A stretch of 64,000 nt of DNA from positions 1 through 64,000 of the forward strand of contig NC_134831.1 in the NCBI RefSeq assembly GCF_004210375.1. The letters are read 5' to 3'. The position numbers and the translations under genes are program-made. Source of the DNA: Tachypleus tridentatus. Its lineage: Eukaryota > Arthropoda > Merostomata > Xiphosura > Limulidae. This document shows positions 7,634 to 49,152 of this stretch, piece by piece; positions within the stretch are counted from its first letter, which is position 1; each line of letters begins with the position of its first letter. The notes beneath the pieces are model-generated. The model worked only from the letters and a program-made list of their open reading frames with translations, was not told the origin of the DNA and did not search any database.

Positions 7634-9905
7634 ATGTCAAGCCTGAAAAAGCAAAAGACACTACATGGATTCTTTGAACCCATTCATGAGGATGAACCTG
7701 ATCAATCTGCTGCAGCCAATCAGGTTGAATCAAAATTATCAACTGAATTGTCAGAGTCATCACTGTGGCCTTCTACCAGTGCTGCCACTTCCACCTCAGG
7801 TCCAGTCTGGGACATTGGAAATTATATTTCTGATGATGTCAGCATTGGTAAACAGGTAAGTCGACTCCTCATGATATCAATTTTGTGTTAAAAATCATGC
7901 AAATACTCTGCATCGTTGGATTTCACAGTGGAGGTAGCTACTCTACACTCAACATGCAAAGGGTGCTTTCTGCAAGTACTGCTTTCTTTTTTGCTCCTGA
8001 TGGTGCTGGTGTTGGAAGCCAGAAATTGGGACAACGAGTGAAATTTCCACACACAAACTGGAAGAAGGTTGTTGAAGGCTTCAAGGCATATGAATTTAAA
8101 CAGTACCACCAAGGCAGCAAAAAAAAAAGCTAACAATTTTCTACAGGTCGTAAACACAAGTTCATCTGTGCACTTGCAGCTTCATGCAACTTACAAGCAA
8201 CAAAATGAACAGAACCAGAAATATTTAATGCCTATTATTGATACTGTATTGCTGTGTGGGAGACAGGGTTTAGCTTTGAGGGAAAAATATGATTCTGGTC
8301 CAATGTTTGTTGGTGAAACTGATGAGGAGCCCATCAATAATGATGGGAATTTGTGAGCAATTTTGCACTACAGGGCAAAAGGTGATGTCAAGCCTTAAGA
8401 GTACAAAGAGGAATGCTATATTTCTGAGTCCTCAAATTCAAAATGAAATCATCAATGCCTGTAATACTCATGTTCTTGATGCTTTGGTCAACAGAGTTAA
8501 TGCTGCAAGGTGTTTCTCAATATTAACTCATGAAACAACAGATATTTCAGGCATTGAACAGTGTTTGCTGTATGTTATATATTTGCATGCCAATAACAAA
8601 TCTGTTGCAACGAGAGAAGATTTTTTGCAATTTATACTTGTTTATGATGTGACAGAAACTTAGCTGATGTTATCATAACCAATCTGACAAAATATGGTAT
8701 TGATATGGCTTACTTGCAAGGACAAGGGTACGATGGTGCTACCTCTATGAGTGGGAAATTCAATGGTGTCTAGAGACACATAACTGATAAATTCCCACCT
8801 GCACCCTATGTACACTGCAGTGCCCATTCCCTAAACTTGGCAATTTTTGATGCTTGTAAAGAAGTTCCTGTGTGAAATTGCATGGAGTAATTTCTAGCAT
8901 TGAAACCTTTCAATACACCCAAACAAAAGCACGTTTTGTCTCTTTCAGTGGAGAGTAAAGCACCTGAATAAAAAAAAAAAAGTTTGAAAGGTCTCTGCCC
9001 CACCCATGGGGGTTGAGAGGCATGACTCAGTTATTGTCTTTCCAGAATTAATCCATGCACTTGCAGATGCCCTTGAGATCATATCAGATTGACAAGACAG
9101 AGATTCTGCCATGCAAGCCAATCAATTGTTGTGTTCTATAACATAGCCAGAATTCATCATCACTCTACTTACCATTGCTAAATTGTTTTCCTTCAGTTTA
9201 CCTCTGTGCAACTTACTGCAGCAAAAGAACATTGACTTAGGTGTTGCGATGCATCACGTAGAAATAGTCGAAGATTTAATCCGTTCACTCAGAAATAATA
9301 CTGTGAATGAATTTAACAACATTTTCTGCGAGACTCAAATTGTGTAGTGAGTTCCAAATTGACATCATAATGTCAAGGCAGGCAAAAGACAGATGTACCG
9401 TGCTAACCCACAAATTGCTAGCCCTGAGGAGAACTTTCATATTGTTGTATTTGTACCATTTGTTGATCACTTTCTTTCACAAATATGTAACCGTCTGTCC
9501 AATCACAAAACTCTCCTTACAAACTTCATGTGTCTACTACCATCAGGATCTACCACAGAATGGTCAGAACCTACAGCACAACAATGTGACCAAATTAAAG
9601 AGTTGGTCAATATATACAAGGCTGAAATTGACAGCACTTTATTAACTGCAGTAGGTAAACTTAGGGTTTGGTACAAATCACTTGCGAACAACAGACTAAA
9701 AAATGTCATAGATACATATGCAATGTGCAATGCAGAAATGTTCCCAGTCAATTCTGGACTGTTGAAAGTATTTGCCACATTGCCTCTGTCAACGAGCTCA
9801 GTGGAGCATTCGTTTCAACTCTCAGAAGACTCCACATGTATTTGACAAATATCACCACTGAAGATCAATTGAATGGCCTTGGCCCCATTACACATTCACT
9901 GTGAT
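7634..9905 (+). pseudogene. hAT transposase pseudogene (TTF-type zinc finger, ZMYM1/P52rIPK-like)
   Basis: The gene starts ATG at 7634 (MSSLKKQKTLHGFFEP, the usual N-terminus of this hAT group). Exon 1 ends at 7855 on a GTAAGT donor, and an acceptor (TTTCACAG) lies near 7928. Exon 2 begins with the TTF-type finger (KGAFCKYC, then APDGAGVGSQKLGQRVKFPH and NWKKVVEGFKAYE..QYHQGS). The catalytic region follows (VNRVNAARCFSILTHETTD, then QGQGYDGATSMSGKFNGV, then YVHCSAHSLNLAIFDACKE). The C-terminal dimerisation region is near 9765-9900 (FATLPLSTSSVEHSF; TTEDQLNGLGPI). It is broken by stops (for example after FNGV) and several frameshifts. It is the element's own gene, now inactive. Confidence 0.9.
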
Positions 9906-38569: not shown

Positions 38570-38850
38570 GGCCCGGCATGGCCAAGCGTGTTAAGGCGTG
38601 CGACTCGTAATCCGATGGTCGCGGGTTCGAATCCCGGTCGCGCCAAACATGCTCGCCTTTTCAGCCGTGGGGGCGTTATAATGTGACGGTCAATCCCACT
38701 ATTCGTTGGTAAAAGAGTAGCCCAAGAGTTGGCGGTGGGTGGTGATGACTAGCTGCCTTCCCTCTAGTCTTACACTGCTAAATTAGGGATGGCTAGCACA
38801 GATAGCCCTCGAATAGCTTTGTGCGAAATTCAAAAACAAAAACAAAAATT
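38570..38850 (+). repeat. tRNA-derived SINE (main family), full length
   Basis: Starts GGCCCGGCATGGCCAAGCGT. The tRNA-like head has A-box-like sequence, the anticodon-loop position CTCGTAA (CGT, Thr-like) and a perfect B box GGTTCGAATCC. The unrelated body follows (GGGGGCGTTATAATGTGACG, AAGAGTTGGCGGTGGGTGGT) and the copy ends in a (CAAAAA)n-type tail. It belongs to subfamily 1 (TTAAGGCGTGCG; ...TTCGAATCCCGGTCGCGCC). It is little diverged, so probably a young insertion. It is not a functional tRNA gene, because the head runs directly into the SINE body. Confidence 0.95.
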
Positions 38851-43037: not shown

Positions 43038-44700
43038 ATGAAACAAGTTCATTTAAGTGGTGCACAAAAGAAAAAACTGGCAAAAGAGAATCAACAAAAG
43101 GCTTTGGATTTAGTGGCCAAGACTAGATAGCAGACTAATTTTTTCACTGAACTTACACAACAAGATCTTCCAAGTCAAAACCCATCTTTGCCATGAGAAG
43201 TTACTTGTACTGTATCTGACTCTGACATGATTAAAGTTGAATCAAGCTCCACATCTACAAGTACCACTTTGTCCACTTGAAGGTCAGAACATTATGATGA
43301 CGTTGAGGTGTCACAGGCTTGCTCAACTGGAACAACTTTCACAACTGATCTTACTTTGCCTGTAAATTCTCCAGATATCTCTTGTGTTAATGTTGATGCA
43401 AGTTTCTCTACAAGACAGTTTGAAGTTGAAATAATTTCTGAAAATGAAAATTGCTGAACTATGGTAAAATGCTTCAGTCTACAAAAGATGAAGAAACTAA
43501 AGCAAAAGATCCAGGGTTGTGGCTCGATTTCTCTGCTGCTGGTGTGGCTTATTCGATTGCTTGTGGACCCACTGACTGTTAACACCACAATGGGTCATTT
43601 GTTAAATCTTGCTGGACTTTCAATAGTAGCAAACCAATGAAATACTGTTTGCAAAAACTTTTCTTTGGGGTAAAAGCCAATGGTGAGTAATACAAGAGAG
43701 AATGGTTGTTGTATTCACTATCGACTTTTTGTCCCTAAATTTTCCTCGTGTTTTGTTGAAAGAGAAGGGTTCAGTGACTGGCGAAATACTATTGTAATTG
43801 ATAATTATGAAGGAAGCACTACTCACCGAGACTCTATGTTAACATACTTAACTTACAGACAAGGTTTAGGCTTGCAACAAGAGTTGGAAAAACAAATTAA
43901 AAGAAGAGTGCGATTACTGGGAGCATGTCTTGGAGCATGCAATAGCTGTTATTTGTACGTTAGCTGAACGTAGCCTGGCTTTTCACAGAACAGATGAAAT
44001 TTGGTTTACTGCAGAATGGGAATTTTTTAGGGCTACATGAGCTCATAAGTCAGTTTGATACATTTTTAGCAGGGCATATTTATAAATATGGAAATTCTGG
44101 AAAAGGAAATCCTTCATACTTGTCCAAAACCGCCTATGAAGAACTCATTGAACCAATGGTTCAGAAGGTCCACACATTCGTTGTTGATGAAGTAAATTCT
44201 TCTGGTTATTTTAGCTTGTCAGTTGACTCGACGCCAGATCTATCACATATAGATCAGTTAAGAGTTGTACTCGATACTTAAAAAATGGACAGCCTACTGA
44301 ATGCTTTTTAACCTTTCTGGAACTAAAAAGTCATATGACTGATGAAATGGCAAACCAGGTATTGCAGTACTTACGTGAACTTTGCAAACTTAATTTTACA
44401 AAATATAGGGGTCAGTCTTATGATAATGCTGCTAACATGTCTGGGCGTTATAAGGATATGCAGTAAAAGATTTTAGATGAAAATAAGTTTGCCATATATG
44501 TGCCTTGTGCAGCCCATTCATTAACTCTGGTAGACCGAAGTTCTTTCTACTGCTGTCAAGTGGCAATTAACTTTTCTCTACAATGTATTTGCTCTATACA
44601 TTTTTTTCAGCCTCAACCAGCCAGTGGAAAATTTTTAAAGCTTGCACAATTAGGCAGAACGTGCTTCCATATTGATCTCATGTTACTCTCGCTTCGTTGA
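43038..44700 (+). pseudogene. hAT transposase pseudogene (ZMYM1-like)
   Basis: The N-terminus MKQVHLSGAQKKKLAKENQQ is at 43038. A frameshifted, stop-containing middle part follows. The best-preserved catalytic part is at 44026-44280 (GLHELISQFDTF, then GKGNPSYLSKTAYEELIEPM, YFSLSVDSTPDLSHIDQLR). After that come RGQSYDNAANMSGRYKDMQ and YVPCAAHSLTLVD near 44410-44535. These are the catalytic-core landmarks of ZMYM1-like hAT transposases. The C-terminal half with the dimerisation domain is missing. The sequence ends where a Tigger transposase on the other strand begins (about 44700). Confidence 0.9.
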
Positions 44701-45475
44701 TATTCTCGATAGCACTTCTGATGATGTAATTTTTCCAGAATTTAGTCGAAGATAGTGCAGATTCTGTAATTGTAGTCTTTATTGCTTGAGAAAAAGTTCG
44801 CTTCAAATAATAATCTTTAAACGTCACAATGACACCGTGATTCATTAATTGCAGTAGAGATGTTGTATTGGGTGGAAGAAGATGAATTTTGACATTTCCA
44901 TTAAAGTCACAAAGTCCTGTTGGATGGCTTTAAAGTCCAAGTTGTTTTCTTTTGCAGTAATGTTCAACTGCAGGACAAAAATAACTTTTTTAACCAGTCT
45001 TCAAACAAAGGTTTTGTGACCCATGCTTTTTTTTATTTGATCGCCAAACAACTGGGAGAGTCTTCTTTGCACAACTGATAAGTGTTCGGGGTGTTTCCGC
45101 ACGATACACAAGCACAGGGTTTAATTTAAAATCGCCAGATCCATTTCCGCGTAACAAGTGTCAAACGATCTTTTAACGCCTTCTAATGTGGCCGAGTTTT
45201 TTTTATTTTCTGATAGAAAAGTTCTTGAAGGCACTTTTTCCCCAAAATAAACCCGTTTTATCAACATTAATATTTGGTTATCTTCGTACCGAACTTTTTA
45301 ATAATTTCTATAAATTCATTAGGAAATGTTTCAGCAGCATCTTTGTCTACACTTGAACTTTCGCCTGCAATACGAACATTATGAAAACCAGAGTGTTTTT
45401 AAAACGAAAGAACCAATCACGGCTTGCCGAAAACATTTCTTTAGTTCCCCATTCACCAACGTTTTCTTTAAAGGC
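44700..45475 (-). pseudogene. Tigger (pogo) transposase pseudogene
   Basis: The minus strand reads, from 45475 downwards: NVGEWGTKEMFSASRDWFFR, then FKN (end of the CENP-B-like DNA-binding part). The catalytic core follows: NINVDKTGLFWGK with the first Asp, then GNGSGDFKLNPVLVYRAETP and LPVVWRSNKK. VKIHLLPPNTTSLLQLMNHG, then VIVTFKDYYLKRTFSQA, lies near 44900-44800. The second-Asp block (LxLDNAPGHP) is lost by a deletion near 44940. Frameshifts and stops are present. The N-terminal end is cut at the SINE starting at 45476. Confidence 0.9.
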
Positions 45476-45843
45476 GGCCCGGCATGGCCAAGCGTGTTAA
45501 GGCGTGCGACTCGTAATCCGAGGGTCGCGGGTTCGAATCCCGGTCGCGCCAAACATGCTCGCCTTTTCAGCCGTGGGGGCGTTATAATGTGACGGTCAAT
45601 CCCACTATTCGTTGGTAAAAGAGTAGCCCAAGAGTTGGCGGTGGGTGGTGATGACTAGCTGCCTTCCCTCCAGTCTTACACTGCTAAATTAGGGACGACT
45701 AGCACAAATAGAGGTTTTACGTGAACCTATTAGTGTCACGTGACCACAACGAGGTTTGTAAACATACCGCCATATTGGGTGGCAAGTGTCCCGCATGACT
45801 GAACGAGTTAACAACTGCTGTATTCAGTACTATTCACATGTAA

Positions 45844-47110
45844 ATGGCTGCCGCTGGCTTTTCATCACTTGTAGCACACCTGACAGGTGCTGAAAAGGCC
45901 AGGTATGAGGAAAAAGTGAAGGAACTGGGTGTAGGAGACCCGTATATGCTCTCGTCACGTGTATTTACGCCAGTAATATCCAGCCAAGACAACGTTGCTC
46001 AGAGTCAGACTGTTGCCGGAGTAGATCTGCCAAATATTACATATGGTGACATTTATATATATTTGATAAACAGGACTTCCACCTATACAAATGAAAGTCT
46101 AAAAGGTTACAAAAGCCTTGATGCGTACAAGTACTTTGTGGCAGGATTTGTACAGAATGTCCAGATAACCAGGGCAACGACGGATAAAGTCATCATTACA
46201 GCAAAGGTTTGTACATCATGTTATATTACATACATGTATCATGTACTCTGTATGATAGATTTAACTACATTTTAGACGAAGACTAGATACTGAAGTAAAG
46301 TAGGGCCCCCATTTTAATAAATGGTTCAATATTATTGCACTACATGTGTACTGACTGTTGTCAAAGCTCTAGCCTAGGAGCACTTCTATACATGTTTGTA
46401 TAATGATATTAAGACACCTAATTGTCTAGGCTGTTTCAAAACTTAATTTATGATTAATTTTTGGTACGGAATCAATATATAGATAATAAATAGTACAAGT
46501 AGACATAGACCGTTAAAGCTGGTCAATAGCCATGTTAGGTTTCTGTAAAAATAATTTAATATTTAACTGTTCTATTATTTTTTTATATTATTTTATTATT
46601 TGACACATGTATCCCAACCTGATACCCAGTTGTCTTTAAAAGCTTATATATACACAACTAAATATTTTCTTTGTTATTTTACAGGTGTGCTACTCTTAGC
46701 GGCTAAATGAACCACCACTAAAGCCATGGGTTGCTTGTTTGTTTGTTTGTTTGGGAATTTCGCACAAAGCTACTCGAGGGCTATCTGTGCTAGCCGTCCC
46801 TAATTTAGCAGTGTAAGACTAGAGGGAAGGCAGCTAGTCATCACCACCCACCGCCAACTCTTGGGCTACTCTTTACCAACGAATAGTGGGATTGACCGTC
46901 ACATTATACACCCCCACGGCTGGGAGGGCGAGCATGTTTAGCGCGACGCGGGCGCGAACCCGCGACCCTCGGATTACGAGTCACACGCCTTACGCGCTAG
47001 GCCATGCCGGGCCCTGCCATGGGTTGCTAGCTGCAGGAATGGAGAGATAATATCTTCCCACTGCACCTGCAAGGCTGGACTAGGTGAAGTCTGCTCCCAC
47101 GTTGGCATTC
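45844..47110 (+). pseudogene. SWIM zinc-finger gene of the THAP/SWIM transposon (truncated)
   Basis: Exon 1, 45844-46205, begins MAAAGFSSLVAHLTGAEKAR and includes GDIYIYLINRTSTYTNESLK and GYKSLDAYKYFVAGFVQ; it ends near KVIITAKV. Exon 2 starts after TTATTTTACAG at 46685. After an in-frame TAG it reads RLNEPPLKPW, is interrupted by a SINE (46736-47015), then continues VASCRNGEIISSHCTCKAGL, then GEVCSHVG. The C-T-C...C-S-H pattern is a SWIM zinc finger. In related transposon proteins this region precedes a YqaJ-type nuclease domain. Here the frame runs into the opposite gene at about 47105, so that domain is absent. The stop, the SINE and the deletion make it non-functional. Confidence 0.8.
46723..47028 (-). 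repeat. tRNA-derived SINE (main family, subfamily 2), nested, 13-bp target duplication
   Basis: A minus-strand SINE at 46736-47015 lies in the SWIM exon and is flanked by a perfect 13-bp GCCATGGGTTGCT at 46723-46735 and 47016-47028. The tail is (CAAA)n, seen as (TTTG)n. The head differs from subfamily 1 (AAGCGCGTAAGGCGTGTGAC; B box GGTTCGCGCCCG; GGGGGTGTATAATGTGACGG), matching the copy at 51277. This is among the most recent events in the window. Confidence 0.97.
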
Positions 47111-48156
47111 AGATTCAAGTCTAACTAAGTCTGTGAATGATATTTCCGTCTGCATACATGTCTCAGTTGTATATTGTGATGCACACAAGTCAAAATTATC
47201 ACATGTAGCTTCAAGTTCATCAGCAGAATCAGTACAGCTGCTATCAGTGGCAGCAGTGCCAGCAGATTCTATGAAAGCAAGGTCAAGCAGCCCAGCAGCA
47301 GCTTCATGTCTCTTTTGTTGTTCTTTTCTCCTTTTGGTCACTTCTTTCCTGTTTTCATATTTACACAATTCAGCAGCTTTCCTTCTCTTCAGGGGAGAAC
47401 GTGTAAAATGAAATATGGAAGGTACATGGTCAGGTAATGGGGATCATCACTCTTCGTCCCTGAAACAGAGTACAATAATTTAGTTAAGATATAGATCTAC
47501 AGGCATCATCAGATAATATTTATACATATAACACATGCACTGTACACTTTTAACTGAATATATATATATATATATATAACTGAATATGCTGAACATTGTT
47601 TAACAGTTGAATGTACAGCCAACAAAGTAATTATTTGCACACTTTTTAATCTTGTGCCAGTTGTGGTTTTCTGATGAATCACTTAAATTGGTCCTTTAAG
47701 AGATATTAACATTTTGTCTTAATGTACAAATGGCTATATAACCTATTCATCATGAATAATATTGTTCCTTCAGTAAATTTACTATTCAGTTATTTAAAAG
47801 TAAAAGAAAAGTGTGCAAAAACATTTCTTTGACTGGTGCTGCAGTGTGTTCTGCTATACATATATCATGCGTGTAAGTTTCAATTTATTCAGCCTGGCTA
47901 TAGATGAATTATACATACCTGACACAAAATGTTTACTACAAAGTCTGGTGTGCTCTGTGGGTGTCCAGTTTTTCCAATTGACAGCTGCAATCCATCGTCT
48001 TCTTCGGTCGGGATCTTTAGGAAATCTGTTGTATGACACATTTTCCACCTGTCCATGTCGATTTGAACAGTTAAATGCACAACACGAGTGTACCATCGCG
48101 CACTTTTGCCTATGAATCACCCTTGTGTTGGAATATAAACATGCCGAGCGTGCCAC
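47105..48156 (-). pseudogene. THAP-domain transposase gene of the THAP/SWIM transposon (truncated)
   Basis: The start codon is at about 48117 (MVHSCCAFNCSNRHGQVENV). The THAP zinc finger follows: C-x4-C, RFPKDPDRRRRWIAAVN.., W.P, then LCSKHF; the C2CH residues are all present. Exon 1 ends after HFVSG at a GTATGT donor near 47920. Exon 2 begins near 47462 (GTKSDDP). A 1-nt frame change precedes the AVPO-like LPDHVPSIFHFTRSPLKRRK, then coiled-coil-like KEVTKRRKEQQKRHEAA and CMQTEISFTDLVRLESE to about 47110. In relatives a DDE (Tnp_4) domain follows; here it is deleted. THAP fingers bind DNA at transposon ends. Confidence 0.85.
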
Positions 48157-48253
48157 CCATCATGGCGGTCAGCAGTAACTAGGTCAAGAGTGACGTCACA
48201 CGCCAAACCTCTATAGCCTTCGAATAGCTTTGTGCGACATTCAAAAAACAAAC

Positions 48254-48851: not shown

Positions 48852-49152
48852 ATGGCTAATTACACTCAATTATTTTATATTTTCGCTAATTTCCTGCTTG
48901 TTTCAGGTTTTAAATTCGTCTACGAAACTGAACGTGGTTCTACTCTCACATTAATTTGTTCAAACCGAGCTTATAAAAGAGCGAGAGAAGAACCAGTAAT
49001 TTGGTTCTCAAATCTCAATGAACAAGTTATTAACAGTGAGAAAACGCAAATAAAATACGGTGGCAAATTAGTGCTAACCGACATCCAATTTGAAGACGCG
49101 GGAATTTACACATGCAAAAATCGTGAAGGTGATTACAAACATGATGTCAGAG
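48852..49152 (+). CDS. Exon 1: signal peptide and Ig domain
   Basis: ATG at 48852 gives MANYTQLFYIFANFLLVSG, a typical signal peptide. An I-set/V-like Ig domain of about 80 residues follows: LTLICSN (first Cys), VIWF (core Trp), GGKLVLTDIQFEDAGIYTC (D-x-G-x-Y-x-C motif with the second Cys). The exon ends CAGAG|GTAAAT at 49152/49153, phase 1, as is usual for Ig-domain exons. The start was chosen because the hydrophobic leader follows it directly, although an upstream non-coding exon cannot be excluded. Confidence 0.85.

Follow-up and report, generated by a model that had tools for sequence, protein, structure and literature searches.

The 64,000-nucleotide stretch of the Tachypleus tridentatus genome analysed here (contig NC_134831.1, hereafter the window) contains a SINE split by a sequence of some 2.5 kb that keeps both of its ends and the beginnings of two genes, and the question raised by this locus is what kind of element this is, what it has lost, and whether it is private to the locus or was copied along with its surroundings. 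The insertion is defined by the following features:

45710..48212, no strand: internally deleted ISL2EU-type element, 2,503 bp with a later SINE counted in
45710..45717, plus strand: left terminal inverted repeat AGAGGTTT, perfect over 14 bp in 9 of 10 long relatives
48205..48212, minus strand: right terminal inverted repeat, the element ending in AAACCTCT
45708..45709, no strand: left AT target duplication, as read from empty sites
48213..48214, no strand: right AT target duplication, as read from empty sites
45476..45709, plus strand: 5' part of the outer SINE, apparently mosaic, its two source SINEs standing apart in paralogs
48215..48253, plus strand: 3' part of the outer SINE

The joined halves of the outer SINE match an uninterrupted SINE at 38570-38840 of the window at 96.7%. 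A genome search with the right flank of the element gave at least 107 matches (the best 40 of 12896 candidates scored), and 29 host-unit loci were fetched from such matches (14 + 15): 13 are filled, with the right border at the identical base, 15 are empty, and one (L057, without coverage of the site) is uninformative; among the filled loci, L029 and L030 are truncated and L051 was partly read. Nine of the 15 empty sites read CACAAAT|AGCC exactly, L041, L045 and L052 are one base off, and L042-L044 are several bases off at the site itself. Because the empty loci run on into the unique flank beyond the SINE, they are paralogs of this very place and not merely other SINEs, and given that they lack the element, the insertion added the element and one AT. 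The first-pass annotation of this DNA had drawn the borders by removing the element together with one AT, and the 15 paralogous empty sites agree with it, six of them with differences of a few bases. An equally long TA phasing of the duplication was considered and rejected, since the ends are symmetric only under the AT phasing; TA is also unfit for L019, which reads aaat[...]atgg.

What the element has lost can be read from its relatives. Full-length two-gene relatives had been predicted elsewhere in the genome, and the search for longer centres found them, at about 5.0 kb. Searching the organism's own genome (2.17 Gb, 205 contigs) with the element gave at least 86 matches (the best 40 of 1184 candidates scored), and searching with the 2.78-kb centre of relative L009 that is missing from the window gave at least 45 (the best 40 of 77 candidates scored); the whole of this centre is covered by at least 11 matches, L009 itself included. 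Eight fetched relatives measure 4,985-5,014 bp, with L027 (4,951) and L028 (4,734) shorter, and the perfect 14-bp terminal inverted repeat AGAGGTTTTGCGTG is present in 9 of the 10 long relatives, the right end of L027 having decayed. Several of the long relatives are broken; L009, for instance, has no single continuous DDE frame.

In the right-end gene, a THAP domain is matched in L009 (Pfam E 1.5e-14), and HTH_Tnp_4 (E 1.3e-17) together with DDE_Tnp_4 (E 3.9e-51) in one 448-codon frame of L026, the latter Pfam model being common to PIF/Harbinger. The transposase (P0001) has D, D and E at residues 272, 347 and 394, which we take to be the expected motifs, and a sequence comparison of this protein with PDB returned no relative. 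THAP exon 1 would be joined to exon 2 in one transposase ORF by splicing, as we infer. The left-end gene of the relatives begins with an N-terminal exon without a Pfam match, followed by a SWIM-like motif (Pfam SWIM E 0.023 in L009, under the cut-off) and by YqaJ, which is matched in an ORF of L017 (Pfam E 1.7e-20; PDB exonuclease 3syy, E 5.4e-7) and finds the lambda-exonuclease model of NCBIfam below the cut-off only. At its C-terminus, the YqaJ protein carries an ING-like PHD finger (best PDB E 1.9e-6 in L017 and 5.4e-6 in L026), located at L017:4867-6147 and L026:3716-4951, for which the Pfam PHD model is matched below the cut-off only; this region is similar in L026 and L019, one C is replaced by F in L017, and the frame of L018 stops earlier. 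Viral contigs, searched as a possible source of the nuclease, yielded 10 pattern matches, with no relative among them; records near the organism's own genome may be absent from this set. The two genes both start near the ends and converge, as had been suggested from the window, and the YqaJ and DDE_Tnp_4 domains that a domain search had been expected to reveal are both found in the relatives, on opposing genes. The earlier reading as a THAP plus SWIM two-gene transposon of ISL2EU type is likewise upheld, with THAP at E 3e-14 in the window and SWIM below the Pfam cut-off; the PHD finger of the SWIM-YqaJ partner had been missed.

On its sequence features, the family is filed as ISL2EU type, by published coding capacity and AT duplication. 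In the accessible portions of the literature, ISL2EU elements are described with a THAP/HTH/DDE ORF and a YqaJ ORF (PMC4482050, PMC9179366), autonomous elements average about 4,840 bp, the terminal inverted repeat usually begins with GG, an A|AT|T target with conserved flanking A and T is reported (PMC4482050), and the function of additional ORFs is stated to be unknown (PMC4482050); a paper on scallops (PMC10225492) mentions both YqaJ and the THAP domain. The likeness lies in the AT target duplication, the terminal inverted repeats, the length of about 5 kb (4,985-5,014 bp in the relatives here), and the presence in these relatives of a THAP, HTH and DDE gene and a separate YqaJ gene, whereas the window copy, internally deleted and presumably inert, has lost HTH, DDE and YqaJ. 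In other respects the family differs from ISL2EU (PHIS/Harbinger-like): its ends start with AG and not with the usual GG, it prefers T|AT|A where A|AT|T is reported, a tendency that we do not treat as group-defining, and its partner protein adds a SWIM motif together with a PHD finger of ING type, neither of them mentioned in the accessible portions of the ISL2EU descriptions. Among the matches listed in a literature search on YqaJ, none pairs it with a SWIM zinc finger or domain or with a PHD finger. PIF/Harbinger elements also combine a DDE transposase with a second ORF, but according to the accessible text of PMC4482050 they have a 3-bp TWA duplication and a Myb/SANT partner instead of the AT and YqaJ found here.

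The AT duplication reproduces at other copies, as had been anticipated. The count took one representative per distinct locus with both ends readable, giving 20 loci, and left out L018 and L071 (flanks equal to those of L017), L026 (flanks like those of L019), L060 (left flank equal to that of L059), L016, L020 and L025 (no right end aligned), L027 and L062 (right end decayed), and all host-linked copies except the window. AT/AT is read at 18 of these 20 distinct loci, L066 and L070 having one changed side. The 18 contexts are T|AT|A in 10, A|AT|A in 4, T|AT|T in 3, A|AT|G in 1 and A|AT|T in none; T|AT|A is thus enriched (10/18 vs. 9.5% of the AT contexts of the window itself, P about 1e-6), and the lack of A|AT|T among the 18 is within chance expectation (P 0.13, again against the AT contexts of the window).

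In the window, the two genes and the deletion between them stand as follows:

45844..46206, plus strand: exon 1 of the SWIM-YqaJ gene (MAAAG...ITAK), open, with splice borders set by inspection
46685..47100, plus strand: exon 2 of the SWIM-YqaJ gene, with an early stop after VCYS and a SINE insert, cut by the deletion
47101..47102, no strand: central deletion junction, about 2.79 kb lost (YqaJ, PHD, DDE, HTH), with a 2-bp GT microhomology
47103..47459, minus strand: exon 2 remnant of the THAP gene, frame-shifted in the window
47919..48096, minus strand: exon 1 of the THAP gene with the THAP domain, open (Pfam E 3e-14)

The loss of the nuclease and DDE domains through a central deletion had already been proposed, and alignment with L009 confirms that about 2.79 kb, YqaJ and DDE included, is missing. 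Window and L010-L015 have the common junction CCCAC(GT)TGGC or CCCAC(GT)TGCC against L009, while L016 and L031-L040 (the latter fetched at the right border only) span the junction unbroken and L029, L030 and L051 do not cover it, so that the identical junction is readable in 17 of the 20 other fetched host-linked copies. The fetched loci represent 13 deletion types in all (window, L022, L024, L058, L059/L060, L061, L062, L063, L064-L066, L067, L068, L069 and L070), the small deletion of L028 being uncounted. By coordinates, the THAP exon is retained in all 13, which is partly selection, given that most loci were picked for both ends matching the window; the first exon of the opposite gene is also retained in 10, and the SWIM exon in three (window, L022 and L024). 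With genes that begin close to the ends and point to the centre, an internal deletion sparing the ends takes away the C-terminal sequence of each. The retention of both N-termini had been called unusual, and this does not hold, since 10 of the 13 types keep both first exons, to which the selection of loci contributes. Three loci whose flanks are unrelated (L064-L066) have the junction 750/3952 in common and form a small non-autonomous subfamily that has been mobile.

The insertion occurs at more than the window locus, having been duplicated along with a host unit. The element search yielded seven more filled loci (L010-L016), and 20 other fetched copies of the duplicated host unit hold the element at the identical site. 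Between the window and L010-L016, the flanks match in pieces at 91-98% identity over several kilobases; in L015, beyond the SINE, the match is on the right side only (pieces >300 bp). In L016, the right half of the element is gone and the sequence then joins an empty unit (C19:42772501-42782400), so this locus is a broken filled unit plus an empty unit, the trace of a recombination between host-unit copies. Searches with 34.0-37.5, 48.3-51.2 and 57.0-60.0 kb of the window match the same neighbourhoods, for example C19:63.171-63.198 Mb, and therefore the host unit spans at least about 26 kb; its copies lie on several contigs, often C19. Downstream of the element, the unit contains this exon:

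48907..49152, plus strand: Ig-domain exon of the host unit, with borders inferred from AG/GT (Ig_3 E 3.7e-7)

The best PDB match of this exon is contactin-1, and a protein search with it gave at least 150 matches genome-wide (the best 150 of 354 candidates scored), at least 107 of them, window included, at 80% identity or more. The frame of this exon is open in the window; of seven paralogs read, six likewise have it open and L012 has a frameshift. This unit may belong to a large Ig gene family or be a large mobile unit, spread by segmental duplication or as a giant mobile element.

That all host-linked copies sit at the same SINE base could also be accounted for by repeated, independent, targeted insertions into one SINE position, an account to which we give next to no credence and which we rejected on the long flanks common to the copies, at about 91-98% identity with the window; these copies also have the identical deletion junction wherever it is readable and form one clade, and the other loci of the element family have unrelated flanks. 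The clade comes from a tree built on the element's right part, with 17 host-linked copies (window, L010-L015 and L031-L040) and 23 other copies, in which the 17 fall together with a FastTree support of 0.987. By plain distance, the right part of the window copy is 0.027-0.041 from the host-linked copies vs. 0.020-0.034 from other loci; it is not nearer to the former, so that what supports the clade is shared derived sites, and common descent is argued from site and junction. Either drift peculiar to the window copy or a great age of the duplications accounts for this. An unrooted tree built from up to 226 bp of flank places all 15 of the empty loci together on one side, with a weak support of 0.744. 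The spreading unit could conceivably also be the derivative, moved in trans as a non-autonomous family, instead of the host unit; that derivatives here are capable of moving is indicated by the 750/3952-type junction at unrelated-flank loci. However, every examined copy with the window junction lies within the host unit (40 of 1184 candidates scored), which leaves this reading very unlikely. Copying of the inserted element together with the host unit is thus the explanation that we retain.

Both genes of the window element are broken. The SWIM motif (CxC..CxH) is still present at 47062-47100, and the premature stop of this exon is absent from the 17 other host-linked copies read. The element would be inert, except possibly as a substrate for the transposase of another copy. 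It might still be imagined as a repressor in the manner of the P element KP derivative, in which a truncated THAP protein without its catalytic domain would bind the transposon ends and block transposition. Repressors are a frequent product of small P elements, the 207-aa KP protein being one, and the internal deletion that retains an N-terminal THAP domain and both ends is alike in KP and here (PMC7776569, in its accessible part); the window has an open THAP exon 1, and among 17 host-linked copies that contain both exons, four (L010, L034, L038 and L040) have exon 1 and the retained part of exon 2 open. Against this, exon 2 is frame-shifted in the window, and in the remaining 13 of these copies, among them the window, one THAP exon or the other is disrupted by lesions of several kinds, partly common to close copies, in a pattern that looks like neutral decay. 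In most copies here, the reading frame is thus not retained as in KP, and a repressor function seems to us highly improbable. P elements, moreover, belong to another superfamily, with an 8-bp target duplication, reported for zebrafish P-like elements in the accessible text of PMC7776569, vs. the 2-bp AT here. One of the lesions, a 9-bp deletion at about 195-203 of THAP exon 2, occurs in host-linked L031, L033, L035, L037 and L039 and also in the unlinked L062, L065, L066 and L067. Its presence at unrelated insertion sites conflicts with simple descent, and we take it as probable recurrent slippage in what by eye is an imperfect 9-bp repeat, gene conversion being the other candidate.

The SINEs record later events at this locus. 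The inner SINE and the remnant next to the outer one are placed as follows:

46736..47015, minus strand: inner SINE, 280 bp, in opposite orientation
46723..46735, no strand: 13-bp duplication GCCATGGGTTGCT flanking the inner SINE, with its second copy at 47016-47028
43801..45475, minus strand: stretch with a degenerate Tigger/pogo-type remnant (two DDE_1 matches), its limits being those of the translated stretch

The inner SINE lies inside the SWIM exon with its 13-bp duplication, as first annotated; relative L009 has a single, uninterrupted copy of GCCATGGGTTGCT, and the 17 other fetched host-linked copies covering this site (L010-L016 and L031-L040) have no SINE there. As to the outer SINE, the order in the paralogs is Tigger remnant, SINE A, a spacer of about 1.4 kb, and SINE B holding the element, where the window has one SINE only. 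At 22 sites the majority of A differs from that of B. Among those lying up to 45602, the window has the A state 11 times, the B state 4 times and neither state once; the 6 that lie from 45659 on all show the B state, and at 4 of these 6 two of the seven A copies have it too. The mosaic is imperfect because of the four B-like sites on the left, yet this distribution strongly suggests that the outer SINE of the window is a SINE-SINE recombinant, with a crossover near 45603-45658 that would have removed about 1.4 kb. The first-pass annotation had described a Tigger remnant cut at a SINE: the remnant stands, with its two DDE_1 matches, and the simple nested insertion probably does not, the boundary being most likely a recombination scar. 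Taken as a whole, the observation made in that annotation is confirmed, and its interpretation is supported in part. Elsewhere in the window, 8280-8660 gives a weak DUF4371 match below the cut-off (E 0.00088), which we take to be probably a hAT-type transposase fragment.

In summary, we hold with high confidence that the window element is a non-autonomous, internally deleted cut-and-paste transposon of ISL2EU type that was carried along by duplication of its host unit. Its parent is an element of about 5.0 kb with two convergent genes, SWIM-YqaJ(-PHD) from the left end and a THAP-HTH-DDE transposase from the right end, from which a deletion of about 2.79 kb at a 2-bp microhomology removed the nuclease and the catalytic domain, no order relative to the insertion being implied. 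As the empty sites show, one copy inserted into the SINE upstream of the Ig-domain exon and duplicated AT; the host unit was then duplicated many times with the element in it, as the common site, junction and flanks show. Later, the window copy received a SINE in its SWIM exon, and on its left some 1.4 kb was, as is strongly suggested, lost by recombination between two SINEs.

Taken by itself, the window copy is an ordinary element whose history reads cleanly. What the analysis adds is that the element was amplified passively along with an Ig-exon unit, that the SINE around it probably carries a SINE-SINE scar, that the full-length relatives encode a SWIM-YqaJ-PHD partner, and that the family prefers T|AT|A. 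We consider it possible, if on the whole doubtful, that the PHD finger reads histone H3 and so tethers the SWIM-YqaJ-PHD protein, as an accessory nuclease, to marked chromatin; if true, such a tether would give the second ISL2EU ORF a testable role and could bear on the choice of T|AT|A targets. The SWIM-YqaJ-PHD partner in the full-length relatives offers, in any case, a concrete lead on that second ORF, and an exactly bounded insertion with many empty and filled paralogs gives the order in which this insertion and the duplication of a large Ig-exon family took place.
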